A stretch of DNA of 64,000 bases, taken from Sediminibacterium sp. FEMGT703S. GTDB lineage: Bacteria > Bacteroidota > Bacteroidia > Chitinophagales > Chitinophagaceae. The notes below the pieces were generated by a model, which was not told where the DNA came from, did not search any database, and worked only from the letters and a program-made list of their open reading frames with translations. The first letter of the stretch is position 1, and each line of letters begins with the position of its first letter. Of the stretch, positions 34,266-41,161 are shown piece by piece. Both the position numbers and the translations under genes were made by a program. The stretch is taken from the NCBI GenBank assembly GCA_002786355.1, contig PGCO01000013.1, positions 1 through 64,000 of the forward strand, written 5' to 3'.

Positions 34266-34304
34266 AATAATCATTTACTTGATAATTGATTTCAAATGAT
34301 TATT
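34266..34304. terminator. Hairpin between convergent surE and M56 genes
   Basis: A perfect 11-bp AT-rich inverted repeat, AATAATCATTT (34266-34276) with AAATGATTATT (34294-34304), encloses a 17-nt loop. It spans the stop codon of the M56 gene. There is no strong T run, so it is a weak terminator candidate. Confidence 0.4.
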
Positions 34305-37290
34305 CTTCGCTAATTACATAAGTAATCGACTGCTTTACTTTCGATTTAACTGCTTTTCCGTTTTGTTTAGCTGGGACCCATTTAGGTCCTTTAACAATCA
34401 TCCTAACAGCTTCTGCTGCAGTTTGATATCCAGGATCATTGTCGGCTTTTACATTACTGATACCACCGTCTGGTGCAACTATAAATGAAACAATTACAGT
34501 ATATTTTCCTGGAGGTGCCCCATTTATTACCGGCAAATCCATTTTTAAATTTCTTTCTAAATATTTTTGCCAAGCTTCTTTACCCCCAGGGAATGATGCA
34601 GGAACTTCAGTTTTGGTAAACACTTTATCATAGCTCTCTTCTTTAACTTGAGCGGGACGACCTGAAGGAGGAGGTGGCGGAGGCGCAGGCAATGACAACT
34701 TTCCATATTTTTTCATTGCTTTTTCTACACTAGAAGAGTTGCTCAAATCATAAGTCTCAATACTTCCATCTTTAAACTCAAGATTCATGCGCAATGGATC
34801 ATGATTCCAAGAAACCCTTTTTATTGCTGGATTCTTAATCAAAAATGCTTTGGTACCTGAAGGGTCATCGGTAATTTCTTTAAAACTGTATCCTATTTGA
34901 TTTCTTGTTTTTATTTCAATAGCACCGAATTCAGCAGCATTACCGTATTTTTTTCTTGCACTTTCACCTTTTAAGACATTTACAGATTCAATATCTTTTG
35001 GATTGATTTTAACCTCATCAAAGTTAACATCATAAACTGGTTGTTTGTTTACAATAACCAATGGATTAGGATTGATTTTAAACCCTTGAACAACCTTCAT
35101 TGGCTTTTCACTAAGTTCACTAGCATTAAGCTTGTACCCTTCAACTACAATCCCATTATTTAATGGAGTTCCTATTAATTTATTGGGATTGATTTTACCC
35201 TCTTTTTCAACTGAAACAAATCCTCGCATTTTTACATCATCGCTCAAATGAAGTGGTTGACCTTGAACAAATTTCACAGAATCTAGACTTGTATTATTCA
35301 GTTGCAAAGCCATCACTGGTGGCATCCCTGCTTTGTTTTTAGTCGTAATTAAAATTACTCCATGCTTCCCTTCTTCACCATATAATTCTACGGCAGATTT
35401 ATTTTTTAATACTGTGATTTCTTTAATAGAATTAGGATCAATTTGAGTAGACATTTTTTCCACCTTTACCCCATCTACTACAAACAGTGGTGGAATTGAA
35501 TCTCCGTTTAGTGGTGGAACCTTTAAAACTCCATTTTCTTTTCCATATCCACTTACAGAAATAGAACTATTCTTAGAATTGAAATTCATTTTATCCTGCA
35601 TGGCTATTCCTGTAAATCGAATTGCTTTAGATGAATCTATACCTTCGGATATAAATTGTACATTTTTACCTTTAGGAATAATATAAACAGAATCTGAATT
35701 TAAAATAGTGGTATCAATTGAAATCCCTTTTTCCTTATTTGAAAAATAGTATTGTACTCCATTCAAAATAGAAGCGGCCAGCTTCTGTTGGTAGCTTTCA
35801 TTTTTCAGTTGATTCAGATCGGATGTATTAGATAAATAACCAGTTTCCAATAAAATAGCAGGACTCTTTACATTTTGTAAGACATATACGCCTTCTTTTC
35901 TACTTTTTAACCCAGTCATTGAAATATCTAAACCAGTTAAACTATTAGCCATTTGGTTAGCAAACAAATAACTTTCTTCGTGATTATAACTTTTCGTTTT
36001 GTCAGCAATATAAATTTCCATACCCTTCTTTGCAGTCGCCAAACTTTTAGGTGCTGTATTACAATGTAATGAAATAAATAAATCTGGGGATTGCTGATTG
36101 GTATACTTAGCTACTTCATAAATACTTTGATTAATATCAGTTTCGCGAGTTAAAATAATCTTTATTTGATTATTTTGATTAACCTGTTGAATCGTTTTTG
36201 CTAATTCCAACGTTAGGTTTTTTTCCTTAATGTTGCCATCAAATGCAGTTGCACCATCATCTTCTCCACCATGACCAGCATTTATTACAACGGTATATTG
36301 TTTATTTAAATAAATATTTATGGGTGAAAATGTAGGTGTTTTTTTTGCTGTGATTTTATCCACCAAATTATCTACTAGCGTTCCGACAGAAATAATTTCC
36401 TCATTTCTTAACTCTTTTGTTCTAAATGCAAATAGCACAACAACAATGGCCAATAAAGGCAGTACAATCAATCTACGCATATAGCTAAATCTGGGGTTGG
36501 TATTTTTGGTAATCATTTGAAGTCTTCTTTTAATAGGTGAAAAGAAAAAAGGATTGGTGAGTAAATAATGTTGCTGTGGATAAGCAGCAGCCAATAACAT
36601 TTGTGCAAGTGAAGCAGAGTCGCCATTGGCAACAGCTTTTTTATCAGCAATGAATTCATGGATCATTTCCATTTCTTTTTTGATCAGCCAGAAAAATGGA
36701 TTGAACCAACCGGCAATCAAAACAAGTTGAATGATTATTTTATCAATACTATGCTTTTGCTGAACATGGGTGAGTTCATGTTGCATCATTTGTTTGCCTG
36801 CATCGCTTCTAAGGTCAATTGATTCGTGCCAGAAAATATAACTGAAGAAAGAAAATGGTGCACCCTTTGCTTTTGTTAAAATAAGGAATATCTCCCCAAC
36901 CGTTTTACAAGAATGGGTTTGTAATAAACGATAAATTTGAATCAAACTTTTGATAAGTCCTACCAATAAAACAAAAGCGATCAATGCATAAATCATCATT
37001 AAAATACCTTGCCAGCCATACTGAAACCAGCTAGAATGTAGATTAGATTCTATCTCTGTATTATTATCGGCAATCACCGAAAAGAATTGAATCAATTGGG
37101 GATCAGTTTCAACTGGCTTGTTCCATTGAATTTTGATCAAAGGAACAATCCATGAAAACAAGGCAATCGCCAATAAATAAAATCGATTGTATTGGTGAAA
37201 TCGATTATTGCGTAAAACCAGCCAGTAATACCCAACCATGATCCCACTGCAAAGTATTACCTGCAAAAAATAATAGAGTGTAGTTGACAT
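34300..37290 (-). CDS. BlaR1-like M56 metalloprotease fused to amidase_3, two plug-like segments and TonB C-terminal domain
   Basis: A 996-aa multidomain envelope protein. Residues 1-290 form an M56 (BlaR1/MecR1-type) membrane protease with helices near 1-26, 37-53, 93-118, 186-205 and 273-289. Zinc motif HELTH is at 171-175 and the third ligand region is EFIAD (212-216). Residues 331-518 are a zinc N-acetylmuramoyl-L-alanine amidase (amidase_3) with GHGG (His340), Glu356, SLHCN (His409) and LLETGYLSN (Glu482), so all zinc and catalytic positions are present. Two TonB-plug-like segments follow (about 600-650, VVDGVKV...GVILITTK; 742-795, IVNKQPV...GAIEIKT). A proline run (868-876) precedes a TonB C-terminal domain (898-993). 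It starts 3 bp after the blaI stop. It probably senses envelope damage, cleaves the repressor and may remodel peptidoglycan; the mechanism is inference. Confidence 0.9.
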   Translation of the reverse strand: MSTTLYYFLQVILCSGIMVGYYWLVLRNNRFHQYNRFYLLAIALFSWIVPLIKIQWNKPVETDPQLIQFFSVIADNNTEIESNLHSSWFQYGWQGILMMIYALIAFVLLVGLIKSLIQIYRLLQTHSCKTVGEIFLILTKAKGAPFSFFSYIFWHESIDLRSDAGKQMMQHELTHVQQKHSIDKIIIQLVLIAGWFNPFFWLIKKEMEMIHEFIADKKAVANGDSASLAQMLLAAAYPQQHYLLTNPFFFSPIKRRLQMITKNTNPRFSYMRRLIVLPLLAIVVVLFAFRTKELRNEEIISVGTLVDNLVDKITAKKTPTFSPINIYLNKQYTVVINAGHGGEDDGATAFDGNIKEKNLTLELAKTIQQVNQNNQIKIILTRETDINQSIYEVAKYTNQQSPDLFISLHCNTAPKSLATAKKGMEIYIADKTKSYNHEESYLFANQMANSLTGLDISMTGLKSRKEGVYVLQNVKSPAILLETGYLSNTSDLNQLKNESYQQKLAASILNGVQYYFSNKEKGISIDTTILNSDSVYIIPKGKNVQFISEGIDSSKAIRFTGIAMQDKMNFNSKNSSISVSGYGKENGVLKVPPLNGDSIPPLFVVDGVKVEKMSTQIDPNSIKEITVLKNKSAVELYGEEGKHGVILITTKNKAGMPPVMALQLNNTSLDSVKFVQGQPLHLSDDVKMRGFVSVEKEGKINPNKLIGTPLNNGIVVEGYKLNASELSEKPMKVVQGFKINPNPLVIVNKQPVYDVNFDEVKINPKDIESVNVLKGESARKKYGNAAEFGAIEIKTRNQIGYSFKEITDDPSGTKAFLIKNPAIKRVSWNHDPLRMNLEFKDGSIETYDLSNSSSVEKAMKKYGKLSLPAPPPPPPSGRPAQVKEESYDKVFTKTEVPASFPGGKEAWQKYLERNLKMDLPVINGAPPGKYTVIVSFIVAPDGGISNVKADNDPGYQTAAEAVRMIVKGPKWVPAKQNGKAVKSKVKQSITYVISEE

Positions 37291-37293
37291 AGC

Positions 37294-37656
37294 CTATTTT
37301 TTTAATTTTTTTATTTCTAGTAATAGAAGTTCCAACTCTTTTACACTGATGTCATTTTGTTTCACCATAAAAGAAACAGCATCAGCAAACGAACCTTCAA
37401 AATATCCATCTACCAATGTTCTAATACTACTCGAAGAATAATCTTCTTTAGATACTATTGGATAATATTCATGTACCCTTCCTATTTGGTTTACCCCTAC
37501 AAATCCTTTGTCTACTAAAATTTTTACGATGGTAGCAATGGTATTGCTATGGGGCTTGGGTTCAGGTTGGGCATCAATAACGTCTTTTAAGAAAGCTGTT
37601 TCCAACTTCCAGATAGACTGCATTATTTGTTCTTCTGCTTTGGTTAATGGTTTCAT
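37294..37656 (-). CDS. BlaI/MecI-family transcriptional repressor
   Basis: A 120-aa winged-helix repressor. The N-terminal DNA-binding domain reads MKPLTKAEEQIMQSIWKL, then HSNTIATIVKILVDKGFVGV and GRVHEYYPIV. The C-terminal dimerisation helix ends in leucine-rich SVKELELLLLEIKKLKK. The length matches BlaI/MecI. I prefer ATG 37656 over 37665, since a probable promoter element (minus-strand TACTCTTG, 37669-37676) would leave almost no room for the earlier start. Three 16-bp dyads lie directly upstream and are its likely operators. Proteolysis by the adjacent M56 protein would relieve repression, as in the beta-lactam response; the inducer here is unknown. Confidence 0.93.
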   Translation of the reverse strand: MKPLTKAEEQIMQSIWKLETAFLKDVIDAQPEPKPHSNTIATIVKILVDKGFVGVNQIGRVHEYYPIVSKEDYSSSSIRTLVDGYFEGSFADAVSFMVKQNDISVKELELLLLEIKKLKK

Positions 37657-37683
37657 GATGTACATTTACAAGAGTAAACTTAT

Positions 37684-37739
37684 AACTAAATTTTTAGTTT
37701 AACAACTATTTTTTTAGTTATTTAACTATTTATTTAGTT
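37684..37739. promoter_or_regulatory. Triple BlaI-type operator between blaI and lpxB
   Basis: Three 16-bp dyads with arms AACTA...TAGTT occupy 37684-37699, 37704-37719 and 37724-37739. They start exactly 20 bp apart (about two helical turns). They sit upstream of the blaI promoter element on one side and end 7 bp before the lpxB ATG on the other. A repressor bound there could control both directions. Confidence 0.8.
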
Positions 37740-37746
37740 ATTCAGC

Positions 37747-38856
37747 ATGAAATACTATATCATAGCGGGGGAAGCCAGCGGAGATTTACATGGCAGTAAC
37801 CTGATTAAACAATTGAAAATACAAGACCCTTCGGCACAAATTCAATGCTGGGGTGGAGATTTAATGAAAGCGGCAGGAGCCCAACTGGTAAAGCATTACA
37901 GAGATTTAGCTTTCATGGGATTTGCTGAAGTGATTAAAAACTTACCCACTATTTTAGGCAACCTAAGCTATTGCAAAAAAGACATTTTAGGCTTTCAGCC
38001 TGATGTACTTATTCTAATTGACTATCCAGGATTTAATTTACGCATTGCTGAATGGGCTAAACAACAAGGATTTAAAGTAGTCTACTATATTGCCCCACAA
38101 GTGTGGGCTTGGAAAGCCAATCGAGTAAAGAAAATGAAGCAATGCATCGATTTAATGCTGTGCATTCTACCTTTTGAAAAAAACTATTTTAAAGAACAAT
38201 GGAATTGGGAGGTTAATTACGTAGGTCATCCTTTGATTGAAGTCATTGAAGAATTTAAAGCATCGCATCCATCAGAACCAAAGCCAATTATAGCTTTATT
38301 ACCAGGAAGTCGTAAACAAGAAATTGCGAAAAAGTTGCCCATCATGTTAAGTGTAGCTTCTTATTTTCCTGATTATGAATTTGTGGTAGCTAAAGCCCCA
38401 GGCCAAGAAGATCAATTTTATGAACCATTTTTAGCTGGACAAAACAATGTAAAAGTGGTGAAAGATAGTACCTATGCGTTATTAATGCAATCCAGCGCAG
38501 CATTGGTTACGAGCGGAACTGCAACTTTAGAAACTGCCTTATTTAGTGTACCAGAAGTTGTTTGTTACAAAGGAAGCAATATCAGTTACCAAATTGCAAG
38601 AAGATTGGTTAAAATCAAATACATTTCTTTGGTGAACCTAATTATGGATAAGGAAATAGTAAAGGAATTAATTCAGGATGAATTAAATACAGCCAACTTG
38701 GTACAGGCCTTGAATTCAATCTTAAAAAATAATCAAGCTCAAGAAATACTTAAGGAAGAATATTCAAAATTGTATCAATTACTATCAGCGGGTGGGCATG
38801 CATCCAAAAACGCTTCGAATCTAATTATGCAATTCCTACAACCATCAATTATTTAA
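37747..38856 (+). CDS. lpxB: Lipid-A-disaccharide synthase
   Basis: Glycosyltransferase (GT19) joining UDP-2,3-diacylglucosamine to lipid X at the inner face of the membrane in lipid A synthesis. The protein starts MKYYIIAGEASGDLHGSNLI and has FMGFAEVI, LIDYPGFNLRIA, YYIAPQVWAWKANRVKKMK, GHPLIE, LLPGSRKQEI and TSGTATLETAL, the standard LpxB blocks. At 369 aa it is complete. Its start lies 7 bp after the third BlaI-type dyad, so lipid A synthesis may be under BlaI influence. Its end overlaps the small convergent gene on the other strand by 8 bp. Confidence 0.96.
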   Translation: MKYYIIAGEASGDLHGSNLIKQLKIQDPSAQIQCWGGDLMKAAGAQLVKHYRDLAFMGFAEVIKNLPTILGNLSYCKKDILGFQPDVLILIDYPGFNLRIAEWAKQQGFKVVYYIAPQVWAWKANRVKKMKQCIDLMLCILPFEKNYFKEQWNWEVNYVGHPLIEVIEEFKASHPSEPKPIIALLPGSRKQEIAKKLPIMLSVASYFPDYEFVVAKAPGQEDQFYEPFLAGQNNVKVVKDSTYALLMQSSAALVTSGTATLETALFSVPEVVCYKGSNISYQIARRLVKIKYISLVNLIMDKEIVKELIQDELNTANLVQALNSILKNNQAQEILKEEYSKLYQLLSAGGHASKNASNLIMQFLQPSII

Positions 38857-39115: not shown

Positions 39116-41161
39116 ATGTTTCAAAAAATCATCCTGATTGCTTGCTTGCTCTTTACTATCCATTCTCAAGCACAAATTAATCCTTCCAAAATTGATATTA
39201 TCCGCGACAAATACGGCGTTCCCCATATTTTCGGAAAAACAGACCCTGAAGTAGCGTATGGCTTGGCTTGGGCGCATGCGGAAGACGACTTTACTACCAT
39301 ACAACAATCCCTTCTTGCAGGCAAAGCCATGCTGGCGCAGTACCAGGGGAAAAGAGGGGCTTCTATCGATTATATTGTTCATTTATTAAGAATACCAGAA
39401 TTGGTAGAAGAAAGATATGAATCGGATTTAGCACCCGACTTTAAAAAACTATTGGAAGGATATTGCGCTGGTCTAAATGCCTACGCGGCCAAACATCCCA
39501 AAGAAGTATTGCTTAAGAAAGTATTCCCCGTTACCCCCAAAGACATGGTGCAGTACTCTGTTTTACAACTTTGTGTGCTTTCAGGGGCTGATAAAGCATT
39601 GGCTGCAATTTTTGGTGGTACCGTTCCCTTGTTAGAAAATTATAAAACACAGGGAAGCAATGCATTTGCCTTTAACAGTAACAAAACAACAGACGGTAAT
39701 GTATACCTTGCTATCAATGCCCATCAGCCGCTGGAGGGACCAGTAGCTTTTTATGAAGCCCATTTAAGCAGTGAAGAAGGATGGAATATATTGGGAGCAA
39801 ACTTCCCAGGTGCTCCGTCCATATTGCATGGAGTAAATGAACATTTAGGCTGGGCACACACGGTGAATGAGCCTGATAAATTGGATGTATACCAATTAGA
39901 AATAAACCCAGAAAATAAGACCCAATATAAATTTGACGGTAAATGGGAGATATTAGAAGAAAGAGTGGCCCATTTAAAAGTAAAACTTGCTGGTTTAAAA
40001 ATCAATGTTAAGAAAAAAGCATACTGGAGTAAATATGGACCAACCATTATTACAGACAGAGGCACTTTCTCTATCAGAATGCCTGCGCAAATGGATATCA
40101 GAGGTTTAGAACAATGGTATCGCTTTAATAAAGCCAAAAACTTTACAGAGTTTAAAGCAGCTGTAAATATGAAAGCTATTCCTGGTTACAATATTGTGTA
40201 CGCAGATAAATACGATACCATTTATTATATCAGTAATGGTCGAATTCCAGTCAGAGATAAAAACTATAATTGGAAAGCCACTTTACCCGGTAATACCAGT
40301 GCTACGTTGTGGAATCAGTTACATCCAATAGAGGCTTTGCCACAGGTATTGCAACCAAAGTCTGGATTTGTATACAATACCAACCATTCTCCTTTTCATT
40401 CTACGGAAGGTCCTGAAAATCCTATGGTGAAAGATATTACGATGGGATATGAAACTCTAGAAAACAATCGCAGCAAGCGTTTTGAGGAAATGCTCAAACC
40501 CTTGAATAAAGTAAATTACGAAGACTTTAAGCGAATCAAATTCAGTAGACAGTTTCCATCCAACTTTTATTTTCCGTATAATATCGATACGCTATTCATG
40601 CTAGATGAAACGAAGTACACTGATATTGCAGACTTGATTTCAAACTTAAAATCTTGGAATAAAATTGCTGATGCGGAAAGTATTGGAGCTGGTACCTTTT
40701 TTATGATTACGCATACTGTTTATGATAATAGAGCGCTTTACTTAAAACAAAAAACAATTACCGAAAATCAGTCGGTGGAAATACTTAGAGCAGCAAAAAA
40801 TAAAATGCTTGCAGGATTTAATAGAACCAATTTGCAATTGGGCGATATTCAAAAACTAGTGAGGGGAAATGTTGCTTTGCCCTTGCCTGGCTTACCAGAT
40901 GTATTAGCGCCCATGTATTCTCTTCCCTATAAAGATGGGATGTACAAAGGCAATCAAGGTGATGCTTACATTGAATTGGTGCGTTTTACTAAAGACGGGC
41001 CAATGATTGAAAGCATCAATGTATATGGAGCATCTGCTAGAAAGGATTCGCCGCATTACACCGATCAAATGGAAATGTATGTGAATCAACAAACGAAAAA
41101 AATGACTTTAGATAAAGCAACGGTATATCAACAAGCGGTAAAAAAATACAATCCGCTTTAA
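39116..41161 (+). CDS. Penicillin acylase-family Ntn hydrolase, exported
   Basis: A 681-aa exported amidase precursor. The signal peptide ends near HSQAQ (about 20). The alpha part starts IDIIRDKYGVPHIFGKTD and includes GLAWAHAEDDF. Autoprocessing is expected before Ser181 in TQGSNAFAF, the N-terminal nucleophile of the beta subunit, followed by INAHQPLEGP, FPGAPSILHGVNEHLGWAHTVN and NTNHSPF. Relatives include penicillin, cephalosporin and N-acyl-homoserine-lactone acylases. The substrate is not predictable, although a lactone-quenching role is possible. The stop shares TTAA with the metX stop on the other strand. Confidence 0.92.
   Translation: MFQKIILIACLLFTIHSQAQINPSKIDIIRDKYGVPHIFGKTDPEVAYGLAWAHAEDDFTTIQQSLLAGKAMLAQYQGKRGASIDYIVHLLRIPELVEERYESDLAPDFKKLLEGYCAGLNAYAAKHPKEVLLKKVFPVTPKDMVQYSVLQLCVLSGADKALAAIFGGTVPLLENYKTQGSNAFAFNSNKTTDGNVYLAINAHQPLEGPVAFYEAHLSSEEGWNILGANFPGAPSILHGVNEHLGWAHTVNEPDKLDVYQLEINPENKTQYKFDGKWEILEERVAHLKVKLAGLKINVKKKAYWSKYGPTIITDRGTFSIRMPAQMDIRGLEQWYRFNKAKNFTEFKAAVNMKAIPGYNIVYADKYDTIYYISNGRIPVRDKNYNWKATLPGNTSATLWNQLHPIEALPQVLQPKSGFVYNTNHSPFHSTEGPENPMVKDITMGYETLENNRSKRFEEMLKPLNKVNYEDFKRIKFSRQFPSNFYFPYNIDTLFMLDETKYTDIADLISNLKSWNKIADAESIGAGTFFMITHTVYDNRALYLKQKTITENQSVEILRAAKNKMLAGFNRTNLQLGDIQKLVRGNVALPLPGLPDVLAPMYSLPYKDGMYKGNQGDAYIELVRFTKDGPMIESINVYGASARKDSPHYTDQMEMYVNQQTKKMTLDKATVYQQAVKKYNPL

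Follow-up and report, generated by a model that had tools for sequence, protein, structure and literature searches.

The described systems closest to the locus reported here are BlaR1/BlaI and MecR1/MecI of staphylococci and Bacillus licheniformis, in which a membrane protease is paired with a BlaI-type repressor. The locus lies in a stretch of 64,000 nucleotides from Sediminibacterium sp. FEMGT703S (contig PGCO01000013.1, hereafter the window), where one open frame of 996 amino acids (aa; 34300-37290, minus strand) joins an M56, BlaR1-type protease to an Amidase_3 domain. With BlaR1 and MecR1 the window protein shares the key residues and fold of the protease, four predicted transmembrane (TM) helices and a domain predicted to lie outside after TM4; an adjacent BlaI, promoter palindromes and a putatively autoregulated operon are common to the loci as well. 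Unlike BlaR1 and MecR1, it has no penicillin-binding sensor, Amidase_3 being found there instead; unlike BlaR1/BlaI, its predicted operator reads ACTA-N6-TAGT, and the tandem pattern marks no second operator-bearing gene.

Several other described systems share parts of this arrangement. PetP/PetR of cyanobacteria is likewise a BlaI plus BlaR1-like pair with a role other than beta-lactam response; a copper response is described, and the available text mentions no wall hydrolase domain (PMC7896320). CwlV, LytH and CwlD, which are compact, insert-free Amidase_3 enzymes, have the same whole fold and zinc site as the window amidase, but the latter is fused behind a membrane protease. CwlD gains its zinc through a partner, GerS, and the activity of LytH is also partner-dependent (PMC8496864). 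M23-M56 fusions also carry a peptidoglycan hydrolase in the BlaR1 sensor slot, but a different one; according to a review, M56 is among the rare partners of M23, amounting together with other catalytic domains to less than 1% of hits (PMC9662197); the available text assigns these fusions no function. Finally, Bacteroidota M56 proteins with plug and TonB_C segments have the same BlaI-linked operon and tail, but no amidase, and by sequence are a sister state of the same locus. Thus M23-M56 fusions are already in print, whereas no paper on an M56-amidase fusion was found among the matches listed in the literature searched, a coverage that leaves out most subscription journals.

Wall fragments or wall state have been debated as input to BlaI since hydrolases were proposed to supply its coactivator (PMC3305447). 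Here, the predicted hydrolase sits on the receptor itself.

A BlaR1-like protease carrying a compact amidase

The following features, all on the minus strand, define the core of the locus:
34300..37290: M56 / Amidase_3 / plug-like / TonB_C fusion gene (open reading frame and Pfam; frame intact in loci L034 and L062)
36403..37290: M56 (BlaR1-type) membrane protease, residues 1-296 (Pfam, profile, model)
36766..36780: HELTH zinc motif, residues 171-175 (H171, E172 and H175 invariant)
36643..36657: EFIAD, residues 212-216 (Glu212 and Asp216 invariant)
36424..36480: predicted TM4, residues 271-289 (hydropathy and charge; helix in model)
35752..36291: Amidase_3 domain, residues 334-513, with H340, E356, H409 and E482 (Pfam, alignment, model)
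37294..37665: blaI-type repressor gene, 123 aa (Pfam Penicillinase_R, E 3.2e-27)

A first-pass annotation of the same DNA had read this frame as one 996-aa chain of M56 protease, amidase, two plug-like segments, a proline run and TonB_C, and Pfam matches above curated cut-offs bear this out. The annotation gave no strand, which is minus; its domain content stands, and the HELTH motif and the residues His340, Glu356, His409 and Glu482 are all where it placed them. The frame is not an assembly error or two joined genes, a concern raised at the time, as it recurs intact in independent records: L034 shares the window architecture in 995 aa (84% in the best segment) and L062 in 1021 aa.

The protease part matches Pfam Peptidase_M56 with E 1.1e-11 (44.9 bits against a cut-off of 31, best stretch 168-260), and H171, E172, H175, E212 and D216 are invariant across 87 aligned rows, as are R272 and R273 near TM4 in alignments A1 and A2. 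We take Glu212 to be the third zinc ligand. Profile A3 (87 rows) retrieves BlaR1 8exp with E 2.2e-8 over profile positions 14-292, and an AlphaFold model of residues 1-529 built on 87 alignment rows, with a mean predicted local distance difference test (pLDDT) of 89.2 and a predicted template modelling score (pTM) of 0.64, aligns 214 residues with BlaR1 8exs (Z 16.0, 3.6 A). BlaR1 counterparts of the key protease residues are reported in PMC9834060, among them Asp246, the counterpart of Asp216. Judged from sequence and model, the membrane protease part is BlaR1-like in fold and active-site residues. The score for NCBIfam blaR1_generic stays below its cut-off (24.9 versus 400), and the window protein contains no Pfam beta-lactam sensor domain, Amidase_3 occupying that place. 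An earlier full-length model (A2) had a mean pLDDT of 59.9, with the M56 part mostly below 50, and could be relied on for no more than the amidase, the 810-860 segment and TonB_C.

The amidase part, for which the first-pass annotation had called for a profile search, matches Pfam Amidase_3 with E 1.4e-41 (142.9 bits against a cut-off of 27) over positions 1-173 of the 174 of the profile. Its modelled fold (AlphaFold) resembles 4rn7 (Z 28.4), CwlV 1jwq (26.8) and LytH (26.0) over nearly the whole domain, with a Foldseek TM-score of 0.93 to CwlV 1jwq, and also CwlD (Z 25.2); the NCBIfam CwlD equivalog TIGR02883 is missed (93.9 versus 221.55 bits). For comparison, 89 distinct M56 proteins were gathered, 49 of them fused (48 with a full amidase, whereas the contig of L005 is cut inside it) and 40 non-fused; L numbers denote the collected loci, L035 and L189 being one and the same contig. 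Among the 48 complete fused proteins, the H/E/H zinc ligands are kept in all and the catalytic Glu in 46, and fused amidase domains measure 181-203 aa in the cut used, versus at least 225 aa for insert-type free ones. The ratio of non-synonymous to synonymous substitution (dN/dS), window versus L034 and L062, respectively, is 0.091 and 0.111 in the amidase, 0.047 and 0.055 in the M56 part, and 0.13-0.72 in the linker and tail segments. Taken over sequence and model, the amidase is complete, compact and constrained.

Residues 254-273, on the N side of TM4, have a net charge of +7, and no hydrophobic segment follows beyond residue 300. In BlaR1, the N terminus and the sensor both lie outside, the sensor after the corresponding TM segment (PMC9834060). 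From this charge and the BlaR1 orientation, the amidase is expected in the periplasm, in agreement with the topology that the first-pass annotation had anticipated. As it starts 4-44 aa beyond the M56 domain in 48/48 complete fused proteins and is predicted to be periplasmic, it would fill the slot of the BlaR1 sensor.

A recurrent architecture

A survey of the architecture among Chitinophagaceae had been suggested, and the 49 fused proteins collected make it a recurrent one, not one odd protein. In the order (396 genomes), fusion-bearing genomes were counted by eye with three candidates scored per genome, so that the counts are lower bounds: at least 28 of 133 Chitinophagaceae genomes carry the fusion (at least 11/14 in the genus and at least 17/119 in other genera), and all of these at least 28 genomes fall in this family. 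Among 295 genomes of the class, G565 (L132, 481 aa) and G633 (L186) carry it outside the order; the fusion is present in two further families besides Chitinophagaceae. No plasmid-borne copy was seen, as none of 124 matching plasmid records spans 80% of residues 1-529.

Other hydrolases occur in the same position. L186 (2638-4605, plus strand) combines M56, M23 and Amidase_3 in one protein preceded by BlaI, and G706 (L191; 1167-3072, plus strand) has M23 and Amidase_3 after an M56 split over two overlapping frames. M23 alone occupies the slot in five BlaI-linked M56 proteins (L192-L196) from several families of the class; both M23 catalytic motifs are recognized by strict pattern in 3/7 proteins (L190, L191 and L195). 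With Amidase_3, M23 or both found there, the sensor slot is, as far as domain matches tell, repeatedly occupied by wall hydrolases.

Two side observations concern these families. A 410-aa protein of L185 (4450-5682, minus strand) joins an XRE-type helix-turn-helix (Pfam HTH_3, E 4.8e-13) to a compact Amidase_3 (8.2e-43), with a hydrophobic stretch recognized by eye; here too, a compact amidase appears to be coupled to a protein that binds DNA. L016, L057 and L120 each contain a tandem pair of M56 genes at one locus.

Operators upstream of the operon

The blaI gene lies upstream of the fusion gene on the same, minus strand, 3 bases away, and a blaI is adjacent in 49/49 fused and 38/40 non-fused M56 proteins. 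Two further features, shared with the opposite flank, are needed here:
37685..37738, no strand assigned: three tandem palindromes ACTA-N6-TAGT, predicted BlaI operators, at 37685, 37705 and 37725 (20-bp period)
37747..38856, plus strand: lpxB, divergent from blaI (Pfam LpxB, E 2.2e-92)

The three operator matches in the window compare with 0.06 expected from shuffles, and where at least 100 bp are in view, a tandem operator pair lies upstream in 43/48 fused and 21/38 non-fused loci. The exact tandem pair was found in 27 of 61 genus genomes, at one place each, versus one control match in all; 26 of these places precede blaI-M56, and the remaining one lies where a contig ends. The other 34 genomes lack the exact pair, many genomes being partial. 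Only the tandem arrangement is informative, since the single-site pattern ACTAWWWWWWTAGT has 6 places in the genome (three before blaI, three within open frames), fewer than the 14 of the reversed control. Relaxing the tandem pattern to at most 3 mismatches gives 23 genome places versus 43 for the control, so relaxed matches carry no signal either way.

A dispersed regulon was looked for and not found: the strict tandem pattern reveals no second operator-bearing gene in the genome, and relaxed matches are uninformative. Staphylococcal operators are of the TACA/TGTA type; this type was set aside, being found in only 2/39 relatives and absent from the window. Bacteroidota promoters follow the pattern TTG-N17-23-TAnnTTTG, which occurs upstream in 20/48 fused and 14/38 non-fused regions; in strict form it has no match in the window's own upstream region. 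Only 8 bases separate the end of the third palindrome from the lpxB start, so that lpxB may be co-regulated with the operon. The simplest reading of the operator pattern would be a private, autoregulated operon, perhaps including lpxB. Accordingly, of the damage-response circuit that the first-pass annotation had drawn from the neighbouring BlaI, the BlaI linkage holds, whereas the operators point to the locus's own operon and not to a dispersed damage regulon.

The genome comprises 3.22 Mb in 16 contigs and is 99.97% complete. It contains a single M56 match, and Amidase_3 matches twice, in the fusion and in a 315-aa frame of contig C8; besides the blaI of the locus, there is one weak BlaI match with an internal stop on contig C12.

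History of the amidase domain

Of the 29 loci L034-L062, 28 have lpxB beside blaI-M56, and the remaining one, L057, starts inside an M56 gene; the locus is therefore orthologous, while the periplasmic part of the M56 protein varies. Within the genus, orthologues at this locus that carry the amidase and others that lack it offer a ready-made comparison. The M56 tree, which scored L005 as amidase-less, implies 17 changes in the presence of the amidase, of which at least 7 are forced by well-supported branches.

The fused amidases belong, on the amidase tree, to the compact group, which splits from the insert-type at 97/85. A single origin of the fused amidase was first suggested by a tree whose free set held top-scoring insert-type enzymes only, and which put 48 fused domains on one side of a branch (87 in the Shimodaira-Hasegawa-like approximate likelihood ratio test, SH-aLRT). 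It was dropped when compact free amidases were added: three changes are then needed, and one group appears in no bootstrap tree.

Compared with L034, the window shows a synonymous divergence of 0.05-0.21 in most intervals of residues 361-580 and mostly below 0.6 up to residue 900, whereas in five flanking genes it is above 1.7 or saturated; p98 (0.93) and BlaI (0.42) are lower too. With values so far below those of the five flanking genes, the central part of the chain was apparently swapped as a cassette. The low-divergence stretch runs from the amidase to the middle of the tail (34687-36291 of the window).

In seven loci, a separate insert-type Amidase_3 gene follows 75-274 bases downstream of the M56 gene, on the same strand:
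L047: 7467-8408
L052: 8212-9153
L055: 8956-9876
L056: 8222-9163
L057: 3625-4575
L058: 8472-9407
L148: 5633-6553
Five of the seven have an amidase-less M56 protein, which corresponds to five of the nine non-fused loci of the synteny set with that side in view. These downstream amidases form one clade, and their relative in the window genome sits on another contig (L002).

The plug and TonB tail

The remaining features of the chain, again on the minus strand, are the following:
35356..35586: plug-like segment 1, residues 569-645 (Pfam Plug; SusC/RagA signature at 622-651)
34900..35067: plug-like segment 2, residues 742-797 (profile built from segment 1; second Pfam Plug stretch)
34687..34890: small folded segment without family, residues 801-868 (pLDDT mostly 79-90; no Pfam match)
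34666..34689: proline run, residues 868-875 (sequence)
34315..34500: TonB C-terminal domain, residues 931-992 (Pfam TonB_C; pLDDT about 90)

Pfam Plug matches in two stretches (E 6.9e-8), the best covering positions 40-107 of 107, i.e. the second half of the plug, and the NCBIfam SusC/RagA signature TIGR04057 exceeds its cut-off in this region. These half-plug segments do not amount to a full SusC/RagA receptor with plug and beta-barrel (TIGR04056, 67 bits versus 368.25). TonB_C at 931-992 scores 34.2 against a Pfam cut-off of 24.6 (E 3.7e-8), and NCBIfam tonB_Cterm remains below its own (13.5 versus 27.1). The letters of residues 801-868 presumably resemble a KTSC-like domain.

Plug and TonB segments differ in number and order among fused proteins. 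Since only 3 aa follow the amidase in L077, L106 and L132, the tail appears optional and not core to the architecture; the segments that the first-pass annotation listed are thus present in the window protein without being central to its plan.

Possible roles of the amidase

The reading that we favour, though it could equally prove wrong, is an autoregulated membrane amidase in which the hydrolase domain doubles as wall sensor and the protein is its own main output. The locus would be a BlaR1/BlaI-type switch with the beta-lactam sensor replaced by a predicted peptidoglycan amidase: four TM helices would bear a cytoplasmic M56 protease, and a short linker after TM4 would carry the compact zinc amidase on the periplasmic side, with a TonB/plug-like tail behind it in the window protein. 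BlaI bound to the tandem palindromes, which overlap the putative promoter shared by blaI and the fusion gene, would keep the operon low. On engaging a cuttable wall (uncrosslinked or damaged strands), the amidase would pass its state through TM4, and the M56 protease would then cleave BlaI, so that the operon would be derepressed and more amidase made. Catalysis, wall sensing, the direction of the signal and BlaI cleavage are parts of this scheme that we infer.

Domains, active-site residues, domain order, operon, operator and the one operator place per genome are seen in the sequence or the model. For the autoregulated amidase count the operator place, the tandem pair in 43/48 fused loci, the slot, the intact active sites, the complete fold and low dN/dS of the amidase, the BlaR1-like protease and the BlaI adjacency in every fused protein, together with M23 in the same slot (L192-L196) and M23 plus Amidase_3 in L186. 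Having one operator place per genome also makes the circuit simple to test.

Several results weigh on the other side. The pTM of the model of residues 1-529 is only 0.64, and the model gives no support for coupling between protease and amidase. By alignment, the catalytic Glu is replaced in two fused proteins (Q in L078, G in L136). The 17 changes on the M56 tree stand for repeated losses or gains of the amidase, which is cleanly missing even from L049, the M56 part of which is 88% identical to that of the window. The operon and operator exist without a fused amidase, and the operator pair in 21/38 non-fused loci implies that the circuit does not need one. Lastly, mismatched operators elsewhere are possible, given the 23 relaxed places against 43 for the control.

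A broader version, which we advance only tentatively, is that BlaI-linked Bacteroidota proteases use hydrolases as exchangeable wall-sensing modules, the hydrolase of Chitinophagaceae being sensor and sole regulated product at once. Were this so, the fusion would be a wall homeostat made of a single protein, for which cutting the wall would be the means of reading it.

Among the alternatives, the one that survives best, itself rather unlikely, has the amidase make the signal: it would free stem peptides, from which, after uptake and trimming, gamma-D-Glu-mDAP (mDAP, meso-diaminopimelate) would bind BlaI and aid its release. Amoroso et al. (2012; PMC3305447) reported that gamma-D-Glu-mDAP binds BlaI/MecI, proposed wall hydrolases as the source of this BlaI coactivator, and suggested that the blaR2 product of Bacillus licheniformis is such a hydrolase. 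The intact active site of the window amidase would suit this role, but later work showed that BlaR1 by itself cleaves BlaI directly (PMC9834060), and both operon and operator remain where the amidase is missing.

It is unlikely, too, that the amidase is a tethered cargo, the signal arriving through the variable plug/TonB tail or the membrane part while the M56 protease sets the amount of amidase, or its release by cleavage. Amidase-less orthologues do retain plug and TonB segments, BlaR1 autocleaves spontaneously between Ser283 and Phe284 (PMC9834060), and the seven loci with a separate downstream Amidase_3 gene look as if an amidase were the wanted product of the operon. Nevertheless, the 3-aa tails show that the tail is not a general input, and the downstream amidases, being one clade, possibly reflect one event. 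That the amidase is kept only as an anchor, binding peptidoglycan to hold the sensor in the wall with catalysis incidental or lost, as the 2/48 fused proteins without the catalytic Glu could suggest, is very improbable in view of the zinc ligands kept in 48/48 and the Glu in 46/48, the low dN/dS and the M23 endopeptidase domains that take its place in the slot elsewhere.

Surrounding genes

The far side of the fusion gene carries surE and a 98-aa gene, and the opposite side the divergent lpxB. A gene of the Penicillin-amidase family adjoins lpxB (39116-41161, plus strand) and is kept in most of the neighbouring loci that are long enough to show it.

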